A DNA stretch of 60,002 bases from an uncultured Ruminococcus sp. (GTDB lineage Bacteria; Bacillota; Clostridia; Oscillospirales; Ruminococcaceae), in assembly GCA_902776945.1 (NCBI GenBank), contig CACYSH010000016.1, forward strand, positions 1-60,002. Direction: 5' to 3'. The notes below the pieces were generated by a model. That model did not search any database, was not told the DNA's origin, and saw nothing but the letters and a program-made list of their open reading frames with translations. Below, piece by piece: positions 35,755 through 52,553 of this stretch. The stretch's first letter is position 1; the number at the start of each line of letters is the position of its first letter. Both the position numbers and the translations under genes were made by a program.

Positions 35755-37098
35755 ATGGAAAATATTGAGATAAAGATCCCCGAAAACGCCCGTATCGCGC
35801 TTGAACGGCTCGAAAAGGCGGGCTTTGAGGCGTGGTGCGTCGGCGGCTGCGTGCGCGATGCTGTAAGGGGTACAGCGCCGCACGACTGGGACATCTGCAC
35901 CTCCGCGCAGCCCGACGAGATGCTCGCGGTGTTCAGGGAGTTCCGCACCATACCCACCGGACTGAAACACGGCACCCTTACCGTGCTTATCCGCGGCGAG
36001 CAGATCGAGATAACCACCTACCGCTGCGACGGCGACTACACCGACCACCGCCGCCCCGACAGCGTTAAATTCGTCCGCGATATAAAAAGCGACCTCGAAC
36101 GCCGCGACTTCACGATGAACGCCATGTGCGTTGATCTGCGCGGGAATATCCTCGACCTTTTCGGCGGCAGAGAGGATATGAAAAACCGTGTTATCCGCTG
36201 CGTGGGCGAACCCGCAAAGCGCTTTGACGAGGACGCGCTGCGAATCTTCCGCGCCGTCCGCTTCGCCGCAAAGACGGGCTTCGAGATCGAGGAAAACACC
36301 GCCGCCGCCGCTCTTGATATGCGCGGCGACCTGAAAAATGTCTCCGAAGAAAGGCTCTATTCCGAGCTGAAAGCGATGCTCGTTCAGCCTTACGCGGGGA
36401 AAGTTCTCCGCGAATACAGGGAGATAATCGGCACGGTTATCCCCGAGCTGACCGCCTGCTTCGACTTTGCGCAGAACAATCCCCACCATTGCTACGACGT
36501 TTGGGAGCATATCACCCGTTCGGTGGATAATGCTCCTCCCGACGAAACACTCAGGCTTACCATGCTTTTCCACGACATCGCCAAGCCGAAATGCTTTTTC
36601 GCCGACGAACAGGGCGTTTCGCACTTCAAGGGACACCCCGCCGAAAGCGCCGTTATGGCTGACAATATACTGCGGCGGCTGAAATCCGACAACGCCTCAC
36701 GCGAGAAGATCTGCGCACTTATCCGCGAACATGACAACCGTTTGCCGCCTTTAAGGAAAGCCGTGCGGCGGTTCCTTTCCAAATACGACAGCGAATTTTT
36801 CGCCGACTGGCTGACCATAAGACGCGCCGACACCTTAGCGCAGTCCGACTACTTCCGCAAGGAAAAGCTCGAAGAGCTTGACGCGCTTGAACGCCTTTGC
36901 GCGGAGATACTCGCCGAAGACCCCTGCTTAAAGCTCGGCAAAATGGCGGTGCGCGGCGAGGACATCGCGGCGCTGGGGCTTAAAGGCAGGGAGATCGGGC
37001 AGATGCTCGGCGACCTGCTGCTGCTGGTGGTTGATGAAAGAATACCCAACGAGAGACAGGCTCTGTTAAGCGCCGCCGAAAGGATAATGAATCAATGA
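35755..37098 (+). CDS. cca: CCA-adding tRNA nucleotidyltransferase with HD domain
   Basis: Adds or repairs the 3'-CCA of tRNAs. The nucleotidyltransferase head has AWCVGGCVRDAVRG near residue 24 and the catalytic HDWDICTSA, then ERRDFTMNAMCVD and the RNA-binding DEDALRIFRAVRFAAKTGFEIE. A C-terminal HD domain (LFHDIAKPKCF, AESAVMADNILRRLK) suggests extra phosphatase activity. Length 447 is typical of the clostridial form. GAAAGG precedes the ATG. It overlaps the VanZ-like gene by 4 nt. Confidence 0.94.
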   Translation: MENIEIKIPENARIALERLEKAGFEAWCVGGCVRDAVRGTAPHDWDICTSAQPDEMLAVFREFRTIPTGLKHGTLTVLIRGEQIEITTYRCDGDYTDHRRPDSVKFVRDIKSDLERRDFTMNAMCVDLRGNILDLFGGREDMKNRVIRCVGEPAKRFDEDALRIFRAVRFAAKTGFEIEENTAAAALDMRGDLKNVSEERLYSELKAMLVQPYAGKVLREYREIIGTVIPELTACFDFAQNNPHHCYDVWEHITRSVDNAPPDETLRLTMLFHDIAKPKCFFADEQGVSHFKGHPAESAVMADNILRRLKSDNASREKICALIREHDNRLPPLRKAVRRFLSKYDSEFFADWLTIRRADTLAQSDYFRKEKLEELDALERLCAEILAEDPCLKLGKMAVRGEDIAALGLKGREIGQMLGDLLLLVVDERIPNERQALLSAAERIMNQ

Positions 37099-38072
37099 CA
37101 ATTAAAACGACCAACAAGCTGACAAAAGCCATTGTGATATTCGGCATACTGGTTATTGCGACCTGCATTATGATATATCTTTTTTCGGCACAGGACAGCG
37201 CTAAGTCGTCGCTCACAAGCGGTAAAATTTCCGGACTGGTAAGCAAGCTGCTCTTTCCCGAACTCGACACTATGCCGCCGAATGTCCGCGACGAGATAAT
37301 GACCGACGTTTCGCACAGGATAAGGAAATGCGCCCATTTTACGGAATATCTGCTCTTGGCACAGTTTACGTTTCAGCTGCTTTTGGCGCTGCCAAGACCC
37401 CGCACCGATATTGTCTGCGCAATAGGCTCGCTGATTTTCTCGGCGGTTTTCGCCATGACGGACGAATATCATCAGAGCTTTGTTCCCGGGCGTGCAATGG
37501 CGGCTAAAGACGTTATGATAGACTCATCGGGCGCGATTTTGGGATTGGCGCTGGTGCTGTTTGTCAGGCATTCTTTGCGAAAGCGAAAAAGAATGGTGGC
37601 GGCGGAAAGCGTCGTATTCGGTACGGCTGAAACAGATAATATTTCGGATTCTGAAACCGACGATATTTCGGATTTTGAAACTGACGATACTTCGGATTTT
37701 GAATCAGACGATATTCCGGACATTGAAACTGACGATATTCCGGACATTAAAACTGACGACATTTCGGATATTGAATCAGACGACATTCCGGACATTGAAA
37801 CTGACGACATTCCGGATATTGAAACTGACGACATTCCGGATTTTGAATCAGACGACATTTCGGACATTGAAACTGACGACATTCCGGACATTGAAACTGA
37901 CGACATTCCGGATATTGAAACTGACGACATTCCGGACATTGAAACTGACGACATTTCGGATATTGAAGCAGATGATATTTCGGATTTTGAAACTGACGAC
38001 ATTTCGGATATTGAAACCGACGATATTGCGGACATTGATAAAGACGATACGACCGAAAACACCGATATATAA
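37095..38072 (+). CDS. VanZ-like membrane protein with acidic octapeptide-repeat tail
   Basis: The first 165 residues are a VanZ-family domain with four TM segments: KAIVIFGILVIATCIMIYLF, HRIRKCAHFTEYLLLA (the family motif), IVCAIGSLIFSAVFAMTDEYHQ and VMIDSSGAILGLALVLF. A basic stop-transfer RKRKRM follows, then about 17 tandem octads of the type ETDDIPDI (residues 179-314), giving a very acidic tail. VanZ in glycopeptide resistance gives low-level teicoplanin resistance, but most relatives have unknown function. The start overlaps cca by 4 nt (ATGA). Confidence 0.88.
   Translation: MTIKTTNKLTKAIVIFGILVIATCIMIYLFSAQDSAKSSLTSGKISGLVSKLLFPELDTMPPNVRDEIMTDVSHRIRKCAHFTEYLLLAQFTFQLLLALPRPRTDIVCAIGSLIFSAVFAMTDEYHQSFVPGRAMAAKDVMIDSSGAILGLALVLFVRHSLRKRKRMVAAESVVFGTAETDNISDSETDDISDFETDDTSDFESDDIPDIETDDIPDIKTDDISDIESDDIPDIETDDIPDIETDDIPDFESDDISDIETDDIPDIETDDIPDIETDDIPDIETDDISDIEADDISDFETDDISDIETDDIADIDKDDTTENTDI
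37629..38036. repeat. 24-bp tandem repeat array, about 17 units
   Basis: Units of the type gacattccggacattgaaac repeat every 24 nt. They encode ETDDIPDI, ETDDISDI and ESDDIPDI variants. Many units are nearly identical at the DNA level, so slippage could change copy number. No stop occurs in several other frames, which explains spurious open frames here on both strands. Confidence 0.92.
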
Positions 38073-42432: not shown

Positions 42433-44808
42433 ATGGCATATAAAATCATCGTCGTTGACGACGACAGCACAAATCTCCGTATGGCTGAACATATCCTGAG
42501 CAAAAACGATATGGACGTGACCGCGCTCGGCTCGGGGCAGGCTCTTCTCGACCACATCGGAAGGAACGACCCGCCCGATTTGATTCTTCTTGATATAAAT
42601 ATGCCCGAAATGGACGGCTTTCAGACGCTTGAGGAACTGCGCATCAAAGAAAACGCCGAAGGTCTTGAAGAAACGCCCGTAATATTTCTTACCGCCTCCG
42701 AAGGTATCGAGACCGAGACCCACGGCTTTGAAGCCGGCGTTTCCGATTACATAAAAAAACCTTTCAACCCCGATATTCTGCTAAAACGCATAGACAATAT
42801 AATCACGCGGCAGAACAGGATAAAGCTGCTGCGCACCGCCGCTTCCACCGATAAGCTGACGGGACTGCTCAACAAGTCGGCGGCGGCTTCCGAGCTTGGA
42901 CACTCCTGCGCCAATGAAAGCGGCTGTCTGCTGATGATAGACCTCGATTCGTTCAAGCTCGTGAACGATCTTTACGGTCACAAAATGGGCGACCGCGTGC
43001 TTATCGCCTTCGCTAAGATGATAAGCGAAAACGCCCCCGAAGGCAGCCGCTGCGCCCGTATCGGCGGCGACGAATTTGCGGCTTTCTATAAAGATATGAA
43101 CGGCGAGACCGAGCTTGCGGCACTTGCGGAAAGGCTCAACAAAAGCATCACCGCCGAAGCGAAACGGCTCATGGGCAACGATATGGAGATACCTCTCGGC
43201 GCGTCGCTGGGCGGAGTTTCCGTTCCCGAATGCGGCAGAGAATACGAAAAGCTGCTGTCCTTAGCCGACAAGGCGCTTTACAACGTCAAGCAGAACGGCA
43301 AGCACGGCGGTGAGATGTATTCCCGCGAAAGAGCCGACGGCACGAGGTATGCTCGTGCAAACGCCGCAGAGATAGACTCGATAGAAAAGGAGCTTTCCAC
43401 GCTTTCGGCGATATTCGGCGAAAGAAATATACCCAACTCGGCACTGCGGCTCGACAAGCAGATTTTTTCCAGCGTATACCAGTATATAATGCGATACGTC
43501 ACGCGCAGCCACCGCAAGGCTTGTAAAATGCTGCTGACCATTTCACGCGGCTCCGAGACCGACCCCGACAAATACGAGGAGCTGTGCTCCGAGTTCGGCG
43601 ACCACATCAAAAACTGCCTGAGAAAATCCGACATACTTATGCGCAACAAGCACGACCAGTATTTTGTACTGCTTGCCGACATACGCGAGGCGGCGGTCAG
43701 CGCGGTAATCAGCAATATGATTGGCAGCTGGAAGGAGCTGCACGGCGACGCGGTAAAGCTGAACAGCGTGACCGAATTTGTCGGCGGGAGCGCCGTTTCC
43801 ACCGAACCGGAAAAGGAATCCCGCATACTTATACTTGACAGCGACGTTGAAGAGATAAAGCGCATGGGACAGATACTGAGCAGCGGCGGCTTTTATGTAT
43901 CGGCGATGAAATCCGCGATGCCGCTGTTTGAATACCTGAAAAAAAGCATACCCGAGCTGCTTATAATCGGCGCGGAGCTGCCCTCGCTCAACTGCCTTGA
44001 CATACTGAACAGGTTAAAGGAGATAGGCGGCGAGACCTCCGACATTCCCGTGCTGATAATCGGCTCGGAGGAGCAGGGCGAGCTTATGTCGGGCGGACTG
44101 CTTCACGGAGCCTGCGACATTCTGCAAAAGCCCGTGAACGCGGGTGTGCTTCTGCAAAGAGTGCGAAACACTATCGAGCTTTCGGCGCTTCGCCACACAA
44201 TGAGCTGCGAAGTGGAAAAAAAGCTGCACGGCAGCAGAGAGCTTTTCTTAAATGTAGTACGTTCGTTCTCGGAATTTATCGACGAAAAGGATCACTATGC
44301 GCACGGACATTCGGTGCAGGTGGCGGAGCTTTCGCGTGAGATAGCAAAACGCGCAGGGCTGACCGAGACCCGTCAGAACGAGATATACACGGCGGCGCTG
44401 CTGCACGATGTGGGAAAGCTGAGTATCCCCGACGCGGTTATCAGCAAGCCTGCCGCGCTCACCAGCGAGGAATTTGAGATAGTTAAAGATCATTCGAATC
44501 TTGGAGCGAGAACGCTGGAGGGCATTTACTCGATGCCTGTTCTTGCCGCAGGGGCGAGGTGGCACCATGAGCGCTATGGGGGCGGCGGTTATCCCGACGG
44601 GCTTTCGGGCAAGGAGATTCCGATAGAAGCGAGGATAATCGCAGTAGCTGACGCTTACTCCGCGATGATGAGCAATCATACGTTTCGGGGGAGTCTTACG
44701 GCGGCTCAGGCGGCGGAGGAATTGCGTAAAGGCAGAGGAACGCAGTTTGATCCGGAATTTACGGATATAATGTTAAAAATCGCAGAGGAACAAAACAAAA
44801 AAAGTTAA
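42433..44808 (+). CDS. REC-GGDEF-REC-HD-GYP cyclic-di-GMP enzyme
   Basis: 791 residues, soluble. REC1 (4-125) has DDD and the phospho-acceptor Asp54 in LLDINMPEMDG. The GGDEF domain (about 135-295) has an intact GGDEF at 211-215 and should make c-di-GMP. A helical linker follows. REC2 (about 470-590) looks decayed: the acceptor position reads IIGAELP. The HD-GYP domain (about 605-785) has HD at 658-659 and HHERYGGGGYP at 711-721 and should hydrolyse c-di-GMP. GGAGGA lies 7 nt before the ATG. The stop codon lies inside the following repeat element. Confidence 0.9.
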   Translation: MAYKIIVVDDDSTNLRMAEHILSKNDMDVTALGSGQALLDHIGRNDPPDLILLDINMPEMDGFQTLEELRIKENAEGLEETPVIFLTASEGIETETHGFEAGVSDYIKKPFNPDILLKRIDNIITRQNRIKLLRTAASTDKLTGLLNKSAAASELGHSCANESGCLLMIDLDSFKLVNDLYGHKMGDRVLIAFAKMISENAPEGSRCARIGGDEFAAFYKDMNGETELAALAERLNKSITAEAKRLMGNDMEIPLGASLGGVSVPECGREYEKLLSLADKALYNVKQNGKHGGEMYSRERADGTRYARANAAEIDSIEKELSTLSAIFGERNIPNSALRLDKQIFSSVYQYIMRYVTRSHRKACKMLLTISRGSETDPDKYEELCSEFGDHIKNCLRKSDILMRNKHDQYFVLLADIREAAVSAVISNMIGSWKELHGDAVKLNSVTEFVGGSAVSTEPEKESRILILDSDVEEIKRMGQILSSGGFYVSAMKSAMPLFEYLKKSIPELLIIGAELPSLNCLDILNRLKEIGGETSDIPVLIIGSEEQGELMSGGLLHGACDILQKPVNAGVLLQRVRNTIELSALRHTMSCEVEKKLHGSRELFLNVVRSFSEFIDEKDHYAHGHSVQVAELSREIAKRAGLTETRQNEIYTAALLHDVGKLSIPDAVISKPAALTSEEFEIVKDHSNLGARTLEGIYSMPVLAAGARWHHERYGGGGYPDGLSGKEIPIEARIIAVADAYSAMMSNHTFRGSLTAAQAAEELRKGRGTQFDPEFTDIMLKIAEEQNKKS

Positions 44809-45058
44809 TAGTGAACAGTTAAGGTGTCCGCACAAAAAAGTGAATAGTGAATAGTGAATAATGAACAGTTAAGGTGTCCGCTTCGCGGACGTTGCGCGGC
44901 GATGGCATGAACAAGTTCATGCAGCCGCGCATTGACTCGCTTACGCTCGTCAGCTTTGAACCGTAGTATGTATTTAAAATAATGCGGAGCGAAGCGTCCG
45001 CAATAATGCGCCGCAGGCGCTCCTTAACTATTCACTATTCACTCTGCACTATTAACTT
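44803..45058. repeat. Palindromic MITE-like element, copy 3
   Basis: GTGAATAGT arrays face inward at 44803-44875 and 45021-45058. The interior has GTCCGCTTCGCGGAC, the hairpin GCATGAACAAGTTCATGC (44905-44922) and a GCGCCGCAGGCGC stem. The element begins at the stop codon of the upstream gene (TAA 44806-44808), so part of it replaced or supplied the end of that gene. It fills the gap to the next kinase gene. Confidence 0.7.
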
Positions 45059-45117
45059 AATTAACTGATTTTCCGTGCCGTAACAACTGTCAAACGATCT
45101 ATGATTGGACAAAAGCT

Positions 45118-47676
45118 ATGAAAAAGGACTTTGGTATCAACAGAGAAATAGGCTTTGTTTCACACCTTGTAACGATAATCACGCTCACGGTGTTTTCAGC
45201 CGTGCTTATCCTCCTGAACATTATCCTCGGCTGGGAAAAATGGACTATCCCCGTAATAATCGCAGGAGCCGCTATCTGTCTCGGCGTGCATATCTCGGGA
45301 AAAGGCTCGGCACGGGCGCGTATCTACTGCTACGGACTGTTCCTGATCTTCGAAATATTCTACTACTCCGTGAACATCAGCACGCTCTACGACAGCACCG
45401 GGCTTATCGTTATAATGTGCTTCGTCTTTGCCATGTCGGGCGAAAGAACGCTCGTCGCGGTGGGTTCGCTGGGCGGCATAGGCGGAATGCTCCTGCACCT
45501 GTGGATGATAAGCGACAGCAAGGGGCTTATACCGGAGCCTGCAAGCATCGTGCGGTCGGTGTGGCAGTTCGCACTCGTCGCGCTGGGCGCTGTTCTCGCC
45601 GACAGACTTTCCTCCGCGTGGTTCAATACCGAAAAGCTCTATCAGGACAGGATAGGCACTATACTTGAGGAAAACGAACGCGCAAATAACTTTCTCGCCA
45701 ACGTATCGCACGAAATACGCACTCCTATAAACGCCGTTATGGGTCTTGCCGCCATTATGGAAAAGGAAAAGCTCCCCGAAGGCGTAAAGGGGAATATGTC
45801 CGCTATCGCCGAAGCGGGACACCGCGTTGCCGATCAGATCGGCGATATTATGGATTACACCGAGATCGACATGAAAAAGCTCTCCGTTTCGAACGAGAGA
45901 TATATGATAAACTCCGTCGTGAACGACCTTGTTTCTCAGCTGCGTTTTACGGAGGATTACGGGCTTGACCTCGTTATCGACCTTGACCCGCGTGTTCCCT
46001 GCGAGCTTATCGGCGACGACAGCAAGATCAAAAAGATTCTGCGCCACCTGATTACCAACGGCTTCAAATTCACCGCGCAGGGCGGCGTGAACGTGCATAT
46101 CTTCGCGAAAAAGCGCGGCTACGGCATAAACCTGGAGCTTGAAGTCACCGACACAGGCTCGGGAATGACCGATACGGAGATAGAGCATATCTATGATAAA
46201 TTTTACCAGTCAAACTCGGGACGTTCGCGCTCGGCGGGCGGTCTCGGACTTGGCATACCCATTGTGAACGGCATAGCGCGGGCTATGGGCGGATTTATCC
46301 ATATCGAAAGCACGCCCGGGCGCGGAACGCTCGTCAGGGTAAGTATCCCGCAGGAGGTCTCCGACAATACCCCCTGCATAACAGTCGGCAGCAAGGACGA
46401 TATACGCGCCGCAGGCTTTCTTAGCTTTATGACGACGAGCGATTCCCGCATCAAGGACTTCCACATGGAAATGGTCTCGCACTTCGTAAAGGCGCTGGAT
46501 ATTCAGTTCAGGCGCGTAAGATCGGTTGACGAGCTGAAAAGGCTCACGGGCGAATGGAACATAACTCACCTTTTCGTCGGCACGGGCGAATATCTCGAAA
46601 ACCGCGAATACATCGAAAGCCTTTGCGGCAGCATGAACATAATACTCGTTGAGGACAAGGATTTCAGAGGTGCCGCCGACCGTAGGATAGCTTTAATGAA
46701 AAAGCCGTTTTACGGTATGCAGATCGCCAATTTCCTCAATCAGTCGAACATCAAGGGACAGAGTACCAGCCGCGAACGCATGACCTGTCCGGGCGTTAAA
46801 GTCCTTGTGGTTGACGACGAGCCGATGAACCTGCTCGTTGCACGCGGCATTTTCGAGGCTTACGGCATGGAGGTACACACGGCGGCGAGCGGTACGGAAT
46901 CTATCGAGATGTGCCGCGCCGACAGATTTGACATAATATTCATGGATCACATGATGCCCGGGCTTGACGGCGTTGAAACAATGAAGCGCCTGCGGCTAAA
47001 TGCGGCGCGGGTGAACGACGAGCTTTGCATAGTGGCGCTCACGGCGAACGCTATCAGCTCGGCGAAGGAGATGTTCATAGCGGAGGGCTTCAACGCCTTT
47101 CTGCCAAAGCCTATCGAGCTTATGGAGCTTGAAAGGGTATTGAAGCACGTTCTGCCGCGTTCAAGCGTGGTCTACGAGACCGTCCCCATAACCATAAAGG
47201 AAACAGAGACCCCGCCCGCGGCAGAGACAGCACCCGTTCCTGCGGAACCTGCTCCCGAAGCACCCGCTGTCCGCGACCCGTGGGCGGTGCTTAAAGAATG
47301 CGGCGTGGACATCGGCGAGGGGCTTGGCTATTGTCAGGACGATGAAGACTTTTACAGGGAGATATTAGCCGAATATGCCGCCGAGCCTGACGAAAAGCTA
47401 AAGGTCTTAAACGAGCTTTTCGGTTCGGAGGACTGGAAAGATTACGGCATAAAAGTCCACGCGATAAAAAGCAGCTCAAAGACGATAGGCGCGGACGCTG
47501 TGTCCGAAATGGCAAAGGAGCTTGAATTTGCCGCGAAATCGGATAACGCAGACCTTATCCGCGAGCGTCATGCCGCGTTTACTGCGGAATACTCGCGGCT
47601 GCTCGGAGCTGTCGCGGAGGTATTGGCAGACGGCTCTGATAAAACGAATGATCCCGAAACCGGAGGCGGCGTATGA
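45118..47676 (+). CDS. Hybrid histidine kinase: six TM, HisKA, HATPase, REC, Hpt
   Basis: 852 residues. Six TM segments (about 12-165) have only short loops, so the signal is probably sensed within the membrane. HisKA carries NVSHEIRTPINA with His198. HATPase shows DTGSGM and GGLGLGI (about 300-425). A decayed receiver-like stretch (about 430-545) lacks an acceptor Asp. A full REC has DDE at 566-568 and Asp610 in MDHMMPG. A C-terminal Hpt has His781 in KVHAIKSSSK. A complete phosphorelay is thus in one chain. The start follows GGACAAAAGCT. It overlaps the next kinase by 4 nt. Confidence 0.9.
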   Translation: MKKDFGINREIGFVSHLVTIITLTVFSAVLILLNIILGWEKWTIPVIIAGAAICLGVHISGKGSARARIYCYGLFLIFEIFYYSVNISTLYDSTGLIVIMCFVFAMSGERTLVAVGSLGGIGGMLLHLWMISDSKGLIPEPASIVRSVWQFALVALGAVLADRLSSAWFNTEKLYQDRIGTILEENERANNFLANVSHEIRTPINAVMGLAAIMEKEKLPEGVKGNMSAIAEAGHRVADQIGDIMDYTEIDMKKLSVSNERYMINSVVNDLVSQLRFTEDYGLDLVIDLDPRVPCELIGDDSKIKKILRHLITNGFKFTAQGGVNVHIFAKKRGYGINLELEVTDTGSGMTDTEIEHIYDKFYQSNSGRSRSAGGLGLGIPIVNGIARAMGGFIHIESTPGRGTLVRVSIPQEVSDNTPCITVGSKDDIRAAGFLSFMTTSDSRIKDFHMEMVSHFVKALDIQFRRVRSVDELKRLTGEWNITHLFVGTGEYLENREYIESLCGSMNIILVEDKDFRGAADRRIALMKKPFYGMQIANFLNQSNIKGQSTSRERMTCPGVKVLVVDDEPMNLLVARGIFEAYGMEVHTAASGTESIEMCRADRFDIIFMDHMMPGLDGVETMKRLRLNAARVNDELCIVALTANAISSAKEMFIAEGFNAFLPKPIELMELERVLKHVLPRSSVVYETVPITIKETETPPAAETAPVPAEPAPEAPAVRDPWAVLKECGVDIGEGLGYCQDDEDFYREILAEYAAEPDEKLKVLNELFGSEDWKDYGIKVHAIKSSSKTIGADAVSEMAKELEFAAKSDNADLIRERHAAFTAEYSRLLGAVAEVLADGSDKTNDPETGGGV

Positions 47677-50336
47677 ACAGGCTTACCAACGCAATTCGCG
47701 ATGAAAACAGACCCATGCACGAACGAATGTTCATGCTGCTCGGCTCTCTCGCCCTTACCGCAATGGCGGCTGTGGTGATGATAGGTTTTATCACAGGCGA
47801 CGACCCTTTTGACCTGTTGACGATAAGCTCGTGCTTTACTGTCTTTCTGATTCTGATGCTTATTGCGGGGAAAACAAAGAACTATAATTTTATCGCTGTG
47901 ATAGTATCTGTTATACTTATCTTCGTGCTGCTGCCCGTGACGTTCTTTGCGGGCGGAGGGATACAGGGCGGCGCTCCGATGTGGTTCATTTTCAGCACGC
48001 TGTGTATAACAATGATAGTGAACGGCAAGGGAAAATTCGTGCTGCTGCTGTTAAACTTCGTCTCGGCGGGCGTGTGCTGCTTTACAGCATACAGACATCC
48101 CGCGCTGCTGACGGAGCATTCCGTCAAAACCTGCTACATAGACACCTATATGTCGATAATACTTGTCGGGCTTATCCTTTCGCTTATGGTGGGCTTTGAG
48201 ATACTTACGCTGAAACGCGAAAAAGAACGCTCCGACGAGCAGAGCCGCAAGATAGCCGATCTCAACAAGGCACAGAACCGTTTCTTCTCCAGCATGAGCC
48301 ACGAGATACGCACCCCGATAAATACGATAATCGGGCTTGACGAGATGATACTCCGCGAGGACATCTCGGAGGAGGTTGCCGACGACGCACGGAACATTCA
48401 GTCGGCTTCGAAAATACTGCTTTCACTAATAAACGACATACTCGATATGTCAAAAATGGAATCGGGCAAAATGGAGCTTGTCCCCGTCATCTACGACGTG
48501 GGGAATATGCTTTCGGACATCGTGACGATGATCTCGGTAACAGCGGAAAAAAAGGGTCTGGAATTTATGATAGACGTTGACCCCACGCTGCCCTCGCAGC
48601 TGCTTTCCGACGAGGTGCGAATAAAGCAGATACTTATAAATCTGCTCAACAACGCCGTTAAATACACCCAGTCGGGCAGCGTGAGCCTTTCGGTACACTC
48701 CCACCGCACCGACAACAACCGTGCGCTGGTGACATACTCCGTTGAGGACACGGGCATGGGTATACGCAAGGAAAGCATTCCCCACCTTTTCGACGCATTC
48801 AAGCGCGTGGACGAGCGCCGCAACCGCTACATCGAAGGCACGGGGCTGGGGCTTTCGATAGTAAAGCAGCTCTGCGACCTGCTGGGCGGCGAAATATCGG
48901 TGAACAGCATCTACACCAAAGGCTCGACGTTCGTTTTCACGCTGGAGCAGGAGACCGTCGGCGACCAGCAGATAGGCACATTCAGCCCCGAGCGTTTCCG
49001 CAGGGGCGGCAAAGCCGCTAAGGGACAGCGTTTCGAGGCTCCCGAAGCGAGAGTGCTGATAGTTGACGACAACCGCACGAATATCCTTGTCGCGGAAAAG
49101 CTGCTGCGCCGAACGAAGGTCATCACCGAGACCGCCGAAAGCGGCGAGGAATGTCTGCGAATGACCCTGCAAAAGCACTATGACGCGATATTCATGGATC
49201 ACATGATGCCCGGTATGGACGGCATTGAATGCCTGCACGCCGTGCGCTCGCAGTCGGGAGGACTTTGCCGCGAAACGCCTATGGTGGTGCTTACCGCGAA
49301 TGCGGGCAGCGAGGAACAGGCGCTCTATCGCCGCGAGGGCTTTGACGCTTATATGCTAAAGCCTATCGACACGGCGGTGCTTGAAGAAACGCTGCTCAAT
49401 ATCCTGCCCGCCGAGCTTGTTACCGTCATGGAGCATGGCATTACCAAATTCGAGCAGGTAGAGCTTGTGAGGGCGGCAAAACGCAAGGTTCCGCTCGTCA
49501 TAACTACCGAGAGCGTTTCGGATATTCCGCAGAAGCTCGCCAACGAACTTGGTATACCCGTTATTCCGTACAAGATCGGCACCGACAACGGACTTTTTGA
49601 CGACGGCTTCGAGGCTGACGGCGACGTACTTATCCGCTGCATGAACGAGGAAACGATAACCGTCCGCAGCGAGCCGCCCTCCGTCGCCGACTACGAGGCT
49701 TTCTTTGCCGAGCAGCTCTCGGATGCGCAGCACATCATACACATCTCCATGGCAAGGCGCAGCGGCGAGGGCTTTGCAAACGCAAGCGAGGCGGCGCTGG
49801 CTTTCTACAACGTAAACGTGGTTGATTCGGGACATCTTTCAAGCGGAATGGGGCTTATGGCTATTCGTGCGGCGTACCGCATGAAGGGCGAGCCTTTCTC
49901 GGACGCTGCCGAGATAAAGCGCGGCATCGAGGAAATGCGCGGCAGAGTTTCAACGAGCTTCATTATGCGCGACACCAATTATCTCTGCCGCAGCGGGAGG
50001 CTTTCCGAGCGTATCAACAGGCTGTGTTCGGCTTTCATGATACACCCTGTCATTGTGATGAAGGACAGCACTATGACCATTGGAAAGGTATTTTTTGGCA
50101 ACTTAAAGCAGGCGCGGCGCACCTACATAAAAAAAGCGTTATACGACCTGCACGGCATAAATACCGAAGCGCTTTTTATAACCTATGTAGGCATGAAAAA
50201 GGACGAGGTGGAGGAAATACGCGATATTGTGGCGGAGTTTGTGAAGTTTGACAAGGTATATCTTCAGAAAGCCTCACCAGCGATCTGTGCCAACTGCGGC
50301 GAAGGAACATTCGGTTTGATTTTTGAAAGAAAATAA
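47673..50336 (+). CDS. Hybrid histidine kinase-REC fused to a DegV domain
   Basis: 887 residues. Six TM segments (about 18-190) are followed by a short coiled linker, HisKA with SMSHEIRTPINT and His210, HATPase with DTGMGI and GTGLGLSI, and REC with Asp509 in MDHMMPG. From about residue 605 to the end lies a full-length DegV domain: VITTESVSDIP, VVDSGHLSSGMG, the YLCRSGRLS motif, HPVIVMKD and the end GEGTFGLIFE. DegV/FakB proteins bind fatty acids. I infer that lipid binding modulates the phosphorelay or is controlled by it. It starts within the upstream kinase stop (ATGA). Confidence 0.9.
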   Translation: MNRLTNAIRDENRPMHERMFMLLGSLALTAMAAVVMIGFITGDDPFDLLTISSCFTVFLILMLIAGKTKNYNFIAVIVSVILIFVLLPVTFFAGGGIQGGAPMWFIFSTLCITMIVNGKGKFVLLLLNFVSAGVCCFTAYRHPALLTEHSVKTCYIDTYMSIILVGLILSLMVGFEILTLKREKERSDEQSRKIADLNKAQNRFFSSMSHEIRTPINTIIGLDEMILREDISEEVADDARNIQSASKILLSLINDILDMSKMESGKMELVPVIYDVGNMLSDIVTMISVTAEKKGLEFMIDVDPTLPSQLLSDEVRIKQILINLLNNAVKYTQSGSVSLSVHSHRTDNNRALVTYSVEDTGMGIRKESIPHLFDAFKRVDERRNRYIEGTGLGLSIVKQLCDLLGGEISVNSIYTKGSTFVFTLEQETVGDQQIGTFSPERFRRGGKAAKGQRFEAPEARVLIVDDNRTNILVAEKLLRRTKVITETAESGEECLRMTLQKHYDAIFMDHMMPGMDGIECLHAVRSQSGGLCRETPMVVLTANAGSEEQALYRREGFDAYMLKPIDTAVLEETLLNILPAELVTVMEHGITKFEQVELVRAAKRKVPLVITTESVSDIPQKLANELGIPVIPYKIGTDNGLFDDGFEADGDVLIRCMNEETITVRSEPPSVADYEAFFAEQLSDAQHIIHISMARRSGEGFANASEAALAFYNVNVVDSGHLSSGMGLMAIRAAYRMKGEPFSDAAEIKRGIEEMRGRVSTSFIMRDTNYLCRSGRLSERINRLCSAFMIHPVIVMKDSTMTIGKVFFGNLKQARRTYIKKALYDLHGINTEALFITYVGMKKDEVEEIRDIVAEFVKFDKVYLQKASPAICANCGEGTFGLIFERK

Positions 50337-50347
50337 TAACTGAGGGC

Positions 50348-50460
50348 AAACCAAGAGTCTTAGGAAGGGAGTGACTGCATTAACTATGTTAATGCCAGCA
50401 AGCTCGTGCAGGGGAAAACCCTTCTTCAGAAGGGTTTTCCAAAAAGACTGAGCGGTTCAG
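50348..50460. repeat. Intergenic repeat, copy 2
   Basis: The motif (50348-50369) is followed by the hairpin GCATTAACTATGTTAATGC (50377-50395) and then a second hairpin, AAAACCCTTCT / AGAAGGGTTTT, which can act as a terminator-like stem. It ends with TGAGCGGTTCA. It lies between the DegV-fused kinase and the EAL-like gene. Confidence 0.65.
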
Positions 50461-50553
50461 GCAATCAACCCGGAGAATGAAAGAGCGCAGCGATTTTCGC
50501 AAACGATTTGCGCGAATGTAAGGATTTTCGCACGGGTCTGGAGCAAGTCGAAA

Positions 50554-50576
50554 GCGGGAGCAAGCCCCCGCCCTAC
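50554..50576. repeat. Hairpin repeat of the CTACA type
   Basis: GCGGG and CCCGC around a 7-to-8-nt loop, followed by CCTACAAG. Same family as 35-56. Confidence 0.45.
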
Positions 50577-50630
50577 AAGAATTGCGCGGGGTAAATAACG
50601 AACGTTTGCTATAAGAACTGAGGAAAGAAT

Positions 50631-52553
50631 ATGTTTGATAAGATATTGCTGTTTGACGTATGTGCAGTTCCAGTCTACCTTATCATTATTGCGACGACCA
50701 TTATCCGCAAAATGTATAAGGGCAGATCGAACCGCCTTTACCTTGAGGTAGCGGTCTTTGCTTTTGCCGCCGACCTCTGCGAGATAGTCGAAAAGCTCGC
50801 GTTTGTAGGCTACACCTTCGGCACGGGATTTGTGTTTTGGGTGAAAATGTGCGAATACGCCTATTTTATCACCCGAAACGCCGTGAACGTTTCGTACCTT
50901 TTCTTTATCATCTCGACTACCAAAACATGGTATAAGATAGACAAGGTACTGCCGAGACTGTTCATTATGCTCCCCTATCTCAGCATAGTTACAATGCTCG
51001 CCACCAACGAGATAACAGGCTGGGTTTTCACCGTCACCATTGAGCAGGGCTACCAGCGCGGCTCGAATATGATCGTTGTTTACGCCTTTGCGGCTTGCTA
51101 TCTTGTAATCGGCGTTATCTATCTTATCGTTCACCGCCACACGCTCGATCTCGGTTCTTTTATAACGCTCATGCTGATGTACGTTATAAACCTGACATCG
51201 GTGCTTTTGCAGTATCTTTATCCGAGATATATAATAGAATCGTTCGCCACCTCGCTGACCGTGCTTTTTGTCGTGCTGTATGTACAGCGCCCCGAATTGC
51301 AGGTAGATACAAGCACAGGTCTGCCCGGCTACCGCGCCTACTGCGAGGAGATCGGCAAGATAAGAGTGACGGGTCACGATACGCGCATTGTCATGATAAG
51401 TCTTAGAAACGCCGCCGAGATGAGCAGCTATTTAAGAGAATCGTATTCAAGCTACATACACATAATCGACACGGAGATACGCGCTTTCGCAAAGCGCGAA
51501 AAAATATCCTGCGAGCTTTATTTCGAGCCGCCCGGCAATTTCTACGCCGTGCTTGACGACGACACCTACAACCCCGTGCAGGCGATACCCTCGATAAAAG
51601 ACCGCATCCGCACGATCGCCGCCGATATACTCGAAACAGGCGCACAGCCCGATATGCACATTGTCAGCGTGACTTTCCCGAAGGAGATACGCACCATTGA
51701 CGAGCTGCTGCGGTTCGGACATAACTTTGCGCGTTTCTCAGATTACAGCCGCATATACGTCCGCGCAGAAGCGATAACCGACAGCCGCGATTATCAGATA
51801 GAAACGCACATCGACGAGATACTTAACCGCGCAGTAGTATCGGGAAAGCTCGGTATACGCTATCAGCCTATATGGTCAGTCGCGGAAAACGGCTTCAACT
51901 GCGCGGAGGCGGTCATCGAGCTTAAAGACGTAGTTTACGGCAGCATCGACCCCGAACTGCTGATAAACGCCGCCGAAGAGCGCGGTCTTATAGTCAGCCT
52001 GAGCAACCGCTATCTTGAAGAGGTATTCACTTTCATGGGCAGCGAGAGCTTCAAAAAGCTGGGCTACAAGCACATCTGCGTGCGGCTGCCCGTTTCTCAG
52101 TGCATGAGAATGGATCTGACCGACACTATATGGAATCTGCGCGAGCGTTTCAGGGTAAATCCCGCGCACATCGCCTTTGAGATCAAAGAGACCTCTTACG
52201 AGAACATGAGCCGCGTATTCAACGAAAATCTGAAAAAGCTCTCGACGCAGGGGTTCAGGATAGTGCTTGACGGCTTCGGCAGCGGATATTCAAACTTCAT
52301 GCACCTGCTTGATATGCCGATAAACGCGGTGCGCCTTGACAAAAGCATAGTAAAGGCTTCGGATTCCGAAGACGGCAAGAAGATACTGAGCGGCGTTATA
52401 GACATTCTGCGCGGCATTTCGCTCACGGTCATGGTTCAGGGTGCCGACGATCAGCAGACATCGTTAATGCTTGCGGGTTCGGGCTGCGATATGATACAGG
52501 GGAGTTACTACTCACCGCCCGTAGAAAAGGACGAGCTTGAAAACGTAAAGTGA
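50631..52553 (+). CDS. Membrane protein with decayed GGDEF and EAL domains
   Basis: 640 residues. Seven or so TM segments (1-220) are followed by a GGDEF-like domain lacking the GGDEF motif (about 225-385) and an EAL-like domain (about 390-640). The EAL motif reads EAV (426-428), DDFGTG is LDGFGSGYSN, and the second Glu of the later EGVE motif is replaced by QGAD. Several metal-binding acids are missing, so c-di-GMP hydrolysis is unlikely. I infer a c-di-GMP receptor or a partner of the other proteins in this island. GAGGAAAG precedes the ATG. Confidence 0.85.
   Translation: MFDKILLFDVCAVPVYLIIIATTIIRKMYKGRSNRLYLEVAVFAFAADLCEIVEKLAFVGYTFGTGFVFWVKMCEYAYFITRNAVNVSYLFFIISTTKTWYKIDKVLPRLFIMLPYLSIVTMLATNEITGWVFTVTIEQGYQRGSNMIVVYAFAACYLVIGVIYLIVHRHTLDLGSFITLMLMYVINLTSVLLQYLYPRYIIESFATSLTVLFVVLYVQRPELQVDTSTGLPGYRAYCEEIGKIRVTGHDTRIVMISLRNAAEMSSYLRESYSSYIHIIDTEIRAFAKREKISCELYFEPPGNFYAVLDDDTYNPVQAIPSIKDRIRTIAADILETGAQPDMHIVSVTFPKEIRTIDELLRFGHNFARFSDYSRIYVRAEAITDSRDYQIETHIDEILNRAVVSGKLGIRYQPIWSVAENGFNCAEAVIELKDVVYGSIDPELLINAAEERGLIVSLSNRYLEEVFTFMGSESFKKLGYKHICVRLPVSQCMRMDLTDTIWNLRERFRVNPAHIAFEIKETSYENMSRVFNENLKKLSTQGFRIVLDGFGSGYSNFMHLLDMPINAVRLDKSIVKASDSEDGKKILSGVIDILRGISLTVMVQGADDQQTSLMLAGSGCDMIQGSYYSPPVEKDELENVK

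Follow-up and report, generated by a model that had tools for sequence, protein, structure and literature searches.

The window analysed here, a stretch of 60,002 nucleotides from an uncultured Ruminococcus sp. (GenBank assembly GCA_902776945.1, contig CACYSH010000016.1, positions 1 to 60,002), encodes a hybrid histidine kinase whose receiver is followed by a complete DegV domain. DegV proteins are known as fatty-acid carriers; in the clade of this fusion the carrier appears to have become part of a signalling machine. The fusion is accompanied by a second hybrid kinase, and a single histidine phosphotransfer (Hpt) domain is predicted to serve both. Our best explanation, which as a whole we place slightly on the probable side, is that of a captive DegV sensor in a two-kinase, one-Hpt relay with likely cyclic diguanylate (c-di-GMP) output. 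The fusion is more interesting as a kinase pair than as a fusion alone.

The fusion gene is composed of the following parts, delimited by Pfam and NCBIfam profiles, conserved residues and AlphaFold2 (AF2) models:

47673..50336, plus strand: hybrid histidine kinase-REC-DegV fusion, 887 amino acids, ATG start (open reading frame, Pfam, NCBIfam, AF2)
47673..48230, plus strand: N-terminal membrane region, residues 1-186, probably six transmembrane helices (AF2 helices; five segments by hydropathy)
48270..48950, plus strand: HisKA and HATPase_c, residues 200-426, phospho-acceptor His210 (Pfam, conserved residues)
49053..49391, plus strand: receiver (REC), residues 461-573, phospho-acceptor Asp509 (Pfam, conserved residues)
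49431..49475, plus strand: REC-DegV linker, probably a flexible tether, residues 587-601 (predicted local distance difference test, pLDDT, below 50 in the full-length model)
49497..50330, plus strand: DegV (EDD-fold) domain, residues 609-886 (profiles, AF2, Foldseek)

Pfam assigns HisKA to residues 200-265 (E = 1.8e-16), HATPase_c to 313-426 (7e-27), Response_reg to 461-573 (4.5e-20) and DegV (PF02645) to 609-886 (3.1e-34; 119 bits, cut-off 27; 277 of the 280 positions in the model covered), and NCBIfam DegV (TIGR00762) matches residues 610-884 with 130.5 bits (cut-off 99.7). An initial annotation of this DNA had proposed a complete DegV domain at residues 605-887 with DSG, SGRLS and GEGTFG motifs; the domain search, the motifs (718-720, 774-778 and 876-881, respectively) and the predicted fold all agree with it. 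A sequence search with residues 605-887 retrieves, at E <= 0.001, nine different DegV-family chains of known structure, including 2dt8 (Thermus), 4x9x (MW1315) and 6dj6 (FakB2), and a profile built from 61 fusion DegV domains matches 25 solved chains. The AF2 model of residues 599-887 has a mean pLDDT of 94.7 and a predicted TM-score (pTM) of 0.92. Its best PDB match in Foldseek is 2dt8, a fatty-acid-binding DegV protein (TM-scores 0.86/0.89, E = 3.2e-24), and the first 45 matches of the PDB listing are all DegV/FakB chains. That the DegV part is too diverged to be genuine is ruled out by the Pfam score, the AF2 model and the PDB match.

The same annotation described residues 1-600 as a six-transmembrane hybrid kinase with His210 and Asp509. 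Both are conserved phospho-acceptor positions, and the helices of the full-length model (15-41, 45-68, 71-93, 101-115, 120-141 and 151-228) are consistent with six transmembrane segments, whereas a crude hydropathy scan gives five. The full-length model has a pTM of 0.52, and the placement of DegV relative to REC was not read from it. Among 67 aligned fusions, His210 is present in 66 (one gap); Asn327, Asp359, Gly361 and Gly389 of the kinase, as well as Asp465, Asp466, Asp509, Thr541 and Lys563 of the receiver, are each present in all 67. Judged by these key residues, kinase and receiver look active.

The initial annotation suggested searching other genomes for this architecture and examining its neighbours. 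Relatives were sought in contigs of 84,980 species (one genome each); family counts rest on the best 80 of 585 confirmed stretches. Together with the loci of the window's own genome, these contain at least 68 open reading frames (ORFs) joining REC and DegV, hence at least 67 besides the window copy, with four near-copy pairs among the 67 (DegV domains 98-100% identical). Such recurrence of the architecture lies far beyond chance. By record title, carriers are mostly Lachnospiraceae and Oscillospiraceae of rumen and gut, with a few other labels. The window genome itself harbours a second fusion copy on another contig (L087), likewise with a partner kinase, and encodes three standalone DegV proteins. 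An even draw from the class (391 genomes), overlapping with the first set (at least in G380, which is L065), yielded at least 11 fusion ORFs in nine genomes among the matches listed, both own copies included. An order-wide PF02645 search (295 genomes), where the longest open frame among the matches listed has 428 amino acids, was not used for the fusion count. In the literature on DegV/FakB with histidine kinases, response regulators, phosphorelays and c-di-GMP, most subscription journals lying outside its coverage and PMC10138225 and PMC3146951 being included with their DegV passages, the fusion was not found described; the initial annotation likewise knew of no characterised example.

The sole point in favour of an artefact, in which assembly or gene calling joined two neighbouring genes, is that most carriers are metagenome assemblies. 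Against it, the majority of the 67 ORFs read through the fusion in a single frame, the exceptions being the split L027 and L065 and the L066 copy, truncated where its contig ends. This holds in metagenome-assembled and other genomes alike: it is unbroken also in records not titled as metagenome-assembled, namely Butyrivibrio sp. XPD2002 (L043) and VCB2006 (L048) and Lachnospiraceae bacterium AC3007 (L051). The fusions moreover form a single clade. A gene-calling artefact is thus rejected, and we regard the probability of an artefact of either kind as practically negligible.

To describe this clade, a tree was constructed from 62 fusion and 28 standalone DegV domains (midpoint-rooted for drawing; bootstrap not quite settled). 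All fusions lie on one side of a single branch of length 0.9 (support 100/100), as would fit their having arisen once. The 62-row set is without L010, L022, L036 and L041 (98 to 100% identical to kept rows), the partial L066, and also L026, although its nearest row is only 63% identical; in place of L004 and L005 it contains the window copy and its paralogue from the same genome, the latter taken from L087. The standalones are those among the best matches of the fusion profile in the class draw, together with those of the window genome, of L028 and of L059, so any contrast drawn below is one with near kin.

Directly before the fusion gene lies the partner:

45118..47676, plus strand: transmembrane-HisKA-HATPase-REC-Hpt hybrid kinase, 852 amino acids, Hpt histidine His781 (Pfam, conserved residues)

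Its stop and the fusion start overlap by 4 nt (ATGA). A second hybrid kinase was found upstream of the fusion in all 63 ORFs (of 67) that have at least 1 kb of contig before them. L004 (minus strand), L021, L057 and L066 (no room) were not scored, and in L027 and L065, where the fusion frame is split, the partner was located before the split-off part. In the class draw, the partner is present in 10 of 10 fusions with enough contig; in the eleventh (L123) only 578 nt of contig precede the fusion, and these show a REC piece. In 61 aligned partner rows the catalytic residues are kept apart from single cases: the second Asp is replaced once by A, the Thr once by S, and the kinase His falls once in a gap. 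The first position of the chosen G2 stretch is variable; the Hpt histidine position holds 52 H, seven gaps, one I and one N. As a separate observation, the partner of the window genome's second pair (L087 2842-5670, minus strand) ends in short near-identical repeats, FSPADNAAADVLD.

The distribution of Hpt between the two kinases is exclusive. Across the 63 pairs it resides on the partner only in 55, on the fusion only in seven, on neither in one and on both in none. The pair with Hpt on neither kinase is the second of L014, where two complete kinase and DegV-fusion pairs stand in tandem and a separate Pfam Hpt ORF is situated between them, just upstream of this pair. Two of these seven pairs with Hpt on the fusion (L033, L036) are near-copies. 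On the tree, the seven Hpt-on-fusion rows form one clade (support 100/98). Hpt is on the fusion also in L057, outside the scored set, and in G405, the partner of which has no Hpt. Sister kinases with a similar transmembrane region and no DegV carry in the DegV slot either Hpt (L070, L074, L081) or nothing (L071, L072).

Fusion-kinase distances correlate with partner distances (r = 0.863 for 60 pairs, a value reached by none of 999 permutations), compared with 0.835 for two domains of one protein. Since the correlation includes no outside control protein, it speaks for joint inheritance and not for contact. The pairing and the exclusive single Hpt suggest that fusion and partner are one relay, and we consider it very probable from the sequences that the two kinases share one phosphorelay with one Hpt. 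That the Hpt is exclusive and has been relocated provides an evolutionary argument for two hybrid kinases acting as a single relay.

We then compared the fused DegV domains with the lipid carrier FakB. According to passages of the FakB1 study (PMC8892158), the carboxylate network involves Thr62, Ser95, Ser171 and His270; Arg173 is a latch required for catalysis, and Arg205 is a key residue for FakA binding and membrane encounter. These residues were mapped onto the fusions by alignment and by the numbering of the FakB1 chain. In the window, two sites deserve separate listing (both by alignment):

50088..50096, plus strand: codons for V-F-F (residues 806-808), where FakB has its K-x-R docking patch (FakB1 Lys203, Arg205)
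50292..50294, plus strand: codon of Asn874, at the place of FakB1 His270

The place of Arg205 (F808 in the window) is basic in none of the 62 fusions and in all 28 standalones (R 27, K 1). The fusions have F 30, L 8, M 7, I 6, V 3, A 3, W 2, T 2 and G 1. This column was chosen by the K-x-R-G motif of the standalones; the HMMER profile alignment shifts FakB1 Arg205 by one column, to the nearly invariant Gly809, which is also non-basic. At the His270 place the fusions have N 56, S 3, H 1, I 1 and T 1, the standalones H 27 and N 1. Arg173 is retained in 16 of 62 fusions (lost in 46; Q 32, Lys 3) compared with 28 of 28 standalones. His270, Arg173 and a basic residue at 205 occur together in no fusion and in 27 of the 28 standalones; a natural contrast is thus provided by carrier residues lost in fusions and kept in nearly all standalones compared. 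In all six left-out relatives (L010, L022, L026, L036, L041, L066) the His270 place is Asn and the Arg205 place is hydrophobic, while Arg173 is kept in L010, L036 and L066 and replaced by Gln in L022, L026 and L041. In L059 (7536-8429), a standalone DegV gene located 118 nt behind the fusion gene keeps the Arg173, His270 and K-x-R places. Of the remaining network positions, the Thr62 place is conservatively changed to S666 in the window and holds T or S in 50 of 62 fusions; the Ser95 place is G698 in the window and S in 23 of 62.

These residues bear on a suggestion of the initial annotation, namely that phosphorylation sets lipid hand-over: DegV would act as a tethered FakB that binds fatty acid and passes it to FakA under control of the kinase. 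The fold is complete, the nearest solved structures are fatty-acid binders, the window domain retains R776 (Arg173), S774 (Ser171) and S666, and FakA (TIGR03599) is present in seven of the nine fusion genomes, the window genome included. Against this stand the Arg205 place, non-basic in 62 of 62 fusions, the His270 place, occupied by Asn in 56 of 62, the joint loss of the three residues, and the three standalone DegV proteins already encoded by the window genome. Further, no FakA match and no Dak2-domain match was found in G426 (97% complete) and G380 (100%), where the fusion is the sole DegV match; the open frame of the G426 fusion has 911 amino acids. The fusion thus persists in genomes with no detectable FakA, and hand-over to FakA is unlikely in these two unless the gene lies in a missing part of the assembly. 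Since the Arg205 and His270 losses and the genomes lacking a FakA match disfavour a carrier role, we hold with considerable confidence that the fusion DegV is not a FakA carrier, and regard phosphorylation-controlled hand-over as quite improbable.

Alternatively, DegV could be a ligand-free structural or protein-docking module, for instance a clamp placing REC near the partner Hpt, with the basic patch turned into a hydrophobic interface. The places of Lys203 and Arg205 are indeed hydrophobic in most fusions (V806 and F808 in the window), as for a new buried contact, and DegV is the most variable part compared (mean identity 0.40, versus 0.48 for the partner HK-REC and 0.60 for the fusion HK-REC, HK denoting histidine kinase). 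However, T/S at 666 and Asn at 874 suggest that polar positions of the head-group site are still under constraint, and S723, F763 and S868 are likewise held (59, 55 and 58 of 62 fusions). We therefore consider a ligand-free module unlikely and lean towards DegV being a sensor, neither inert nor merely structural. The fold is kept and both the docking residue for FakA and membrane and the histidine of the carboxylate network are lost, which suggests that the domain reads an acyl-type or altered ligand. That this ligand is an acyl compound is plausible, yet we would stop short of calling it probable. As for the second mechanism put forward in the initial annotation, lipid supply may set signalling.

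Further, we examined the genes adjoining the kinase pairs. The partner kinase, the shared Hpt and the c-di-GMP regulator of the window do not figure in the initial annotation. The regulator lies upstream of the partner:

42433..44808, plus strand: REC-GGDEF-REC-HD-GYP response regulator, likely relay output (Pfam)

Its GGDEF, HD and GYP motifs are intact by eye. Of the 54 pairs with room, 34 have a neighbouring gene with a GGDEF, HD-GYP or EAL domain, which in most cases encodes a response regulator (31 upstream, two downstream, one both). Upstream, the layouts met most often are REC-HD-GYP (15), REC-GGDEF-mid-REC-HD-GYP (8) and REC-GGDEF-mid-REC (6). A c-di-GMP output of the relay in the window is accordingly considered likely.

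RpfC/RpfG has the layout of a transmembrane-HK-REC-Hpt kinase next to a REC-HD-GYP regulator, and the arrangement in the window invites comparison with it. In an Rpf-type scheme, which overlaps with our best explanation, the membrane part of the partner and the DegV domain of the fusion would both answer fatty-acid signals and drive the HD-GYP phosphodiesterase. The 15 and 8 HD-GYP regulators directly upstream of pairs agree with it. On the other hand, the regulator beside six of the 54 pairs is without HD-GYP, and no RpfC/RpfG model appears for either protein in the best 25 of 86 and 67 NCBIfam matches, the presence of such models in NCBIfam not having been checked. An Rpf-type relay is possible, if rather doubtful.

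In three relatives, proteins of about 255 amino acids adjoin the kinase pair (L073 11887-12669; L125 4389-5159, minus strand; L065 11427-12191). They have a receiver in the C-terminal half only, and their N-terminal half is without Pfam match; with this odd response-regulator layout they are perhaps the output there.

Returning to the captive sensor, we propose that the fusion would be one half of a two-kinase phosphorelay. The fusion kinase would pass phosphate from H210 to D509 and then require an Hpt, which in this window would be H781 of the partner. From H781 phosphate would reach a response regulator, for which the REC-GGDEF-REC-HD-GYP protein nearby is the likeliest candidate, and its phosphorylation would change c-di-GMP turnover. 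DegV follows the receiver on its tether, at the position that in sister kinases is taken by Hpt or left empty. It would descend from a lipid carrier similar to FakB and act as a captive module that senses a ligand in the cytosol; it may read an acyl-type or altered ligand and tune either the kinase or the REC-to-Hpt step. In its most specific form, the proposal is that, on one occasion, a kinase of the Lachnospiraceae/Oscillospiraceae group took in a lipid carrier. This carrier would have lost delivery and would now work, next to the receiver, as the cytosolic acyl-ligand sensor of a c-di-GMP relay with two kinases and one Hpt, even in bacteria with no fatty-acid kinase. This scenario we put forward only tentatively, as possible and not as probable. 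To our knowledge, lipid-state sensing in gut anaerobes is poorly known.

Several observations weigh against the captive sensor. By its retained residues the window domain is nearer to FakB than most fusions are. One standalone, the C6 protein of the window genome, likewise has Asn at the His270 place, so this change alone is no mark of a signalling domain. Since the fusion rows descend from one ancestor, their residue counts are not independent. The G380 fusion frame is split, with the membrane part in a separate overlapping frame; this copy may thus be broken or misassembled. As to the output, the gap between regulator and partner in the window amounts to 309 nt, and no c-di-GMP gene is seen beside 20 of the 54 pairs.

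Downstream of the fusion, one further gene with a c-di-GMP domain is found:

50631..52553, plus strand: membrane EAL-domain protein, motifs look degenerate, association weak (Pfam)

It has 'EAV' in place of EAL and 'LDGFGSG' in place of the usual DDFG motif; with such degenerate motifs the protein may bind c-di-GMP and not cut it. In L011 and L013, too, the gene directly downstream of the fusion encodes an EAL protein, and it shares this N-terminal part. Scanning 44700-45200 and 50250-50700 for promoters and terminators gave nothing clearly above chance. Elsewhere in the window, positions 37095-38072 encode a predicted membrane protein with a long C-terminal run of acidic, nearly identical repeats.

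Among known two-component systems, SaeRS of Staphylococcus aureus is influenced by the pool of free fatty acids, fatty-acid kinase acting on it indirectly via fatty-acid levels (PMC5539427); the passages of that source on SaeRS mention no fused DegV domain. The borrowing of an Hpt has an experimentally shown precedent in Pseudomonas aeruginosa, where, according to PMC4866733, the hybrid kinase LadS uses the Hpt of the hybrid kinase GacS (LadS with GacS/GacA). The layout of the window pair, a fusion without Hpt and a partner with it, matches borrowing of the LadS type, phosphotransfer being predicted. For LadS and GacS, these passages mention neither an adjacent pair nor a lipid-type domain, whereas the fusion pair is adjacent in 63 of 63 cases and its Hpt has moved between partners. 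Positions 42433-47676 of the window are alike in layout to RpfC/RpfG, the window regulator having an additional GGDEF and a second REC. The window further adds a second kinase with a DegV domain. A fatty-acid signal would be another common point: RpfC, according to PMC5391125, is a fatty-acid-binding kinase activated by the fatty acid DSF (diffusible signal factor).

Another DegV fusion, Dak2-FakA_M-DegV of 600 amino acids (L129 2372-4174, minus strand), unites kinase and carrier in one protein and looks like a metabolic, not a signalling, fusion. With FakB/DegV proteins (PF02645, TIGR00762) our fusion shares the complete fold and the family profile. It differs from them in being joined to a histidine kinase, in the long branch that sets the 62 fusions apart from the 28 standalones, and, in the window, in the loss of the Arg205 and His270 equivalents, with Arg173, lost in 46 of 62 fusions, still kept.

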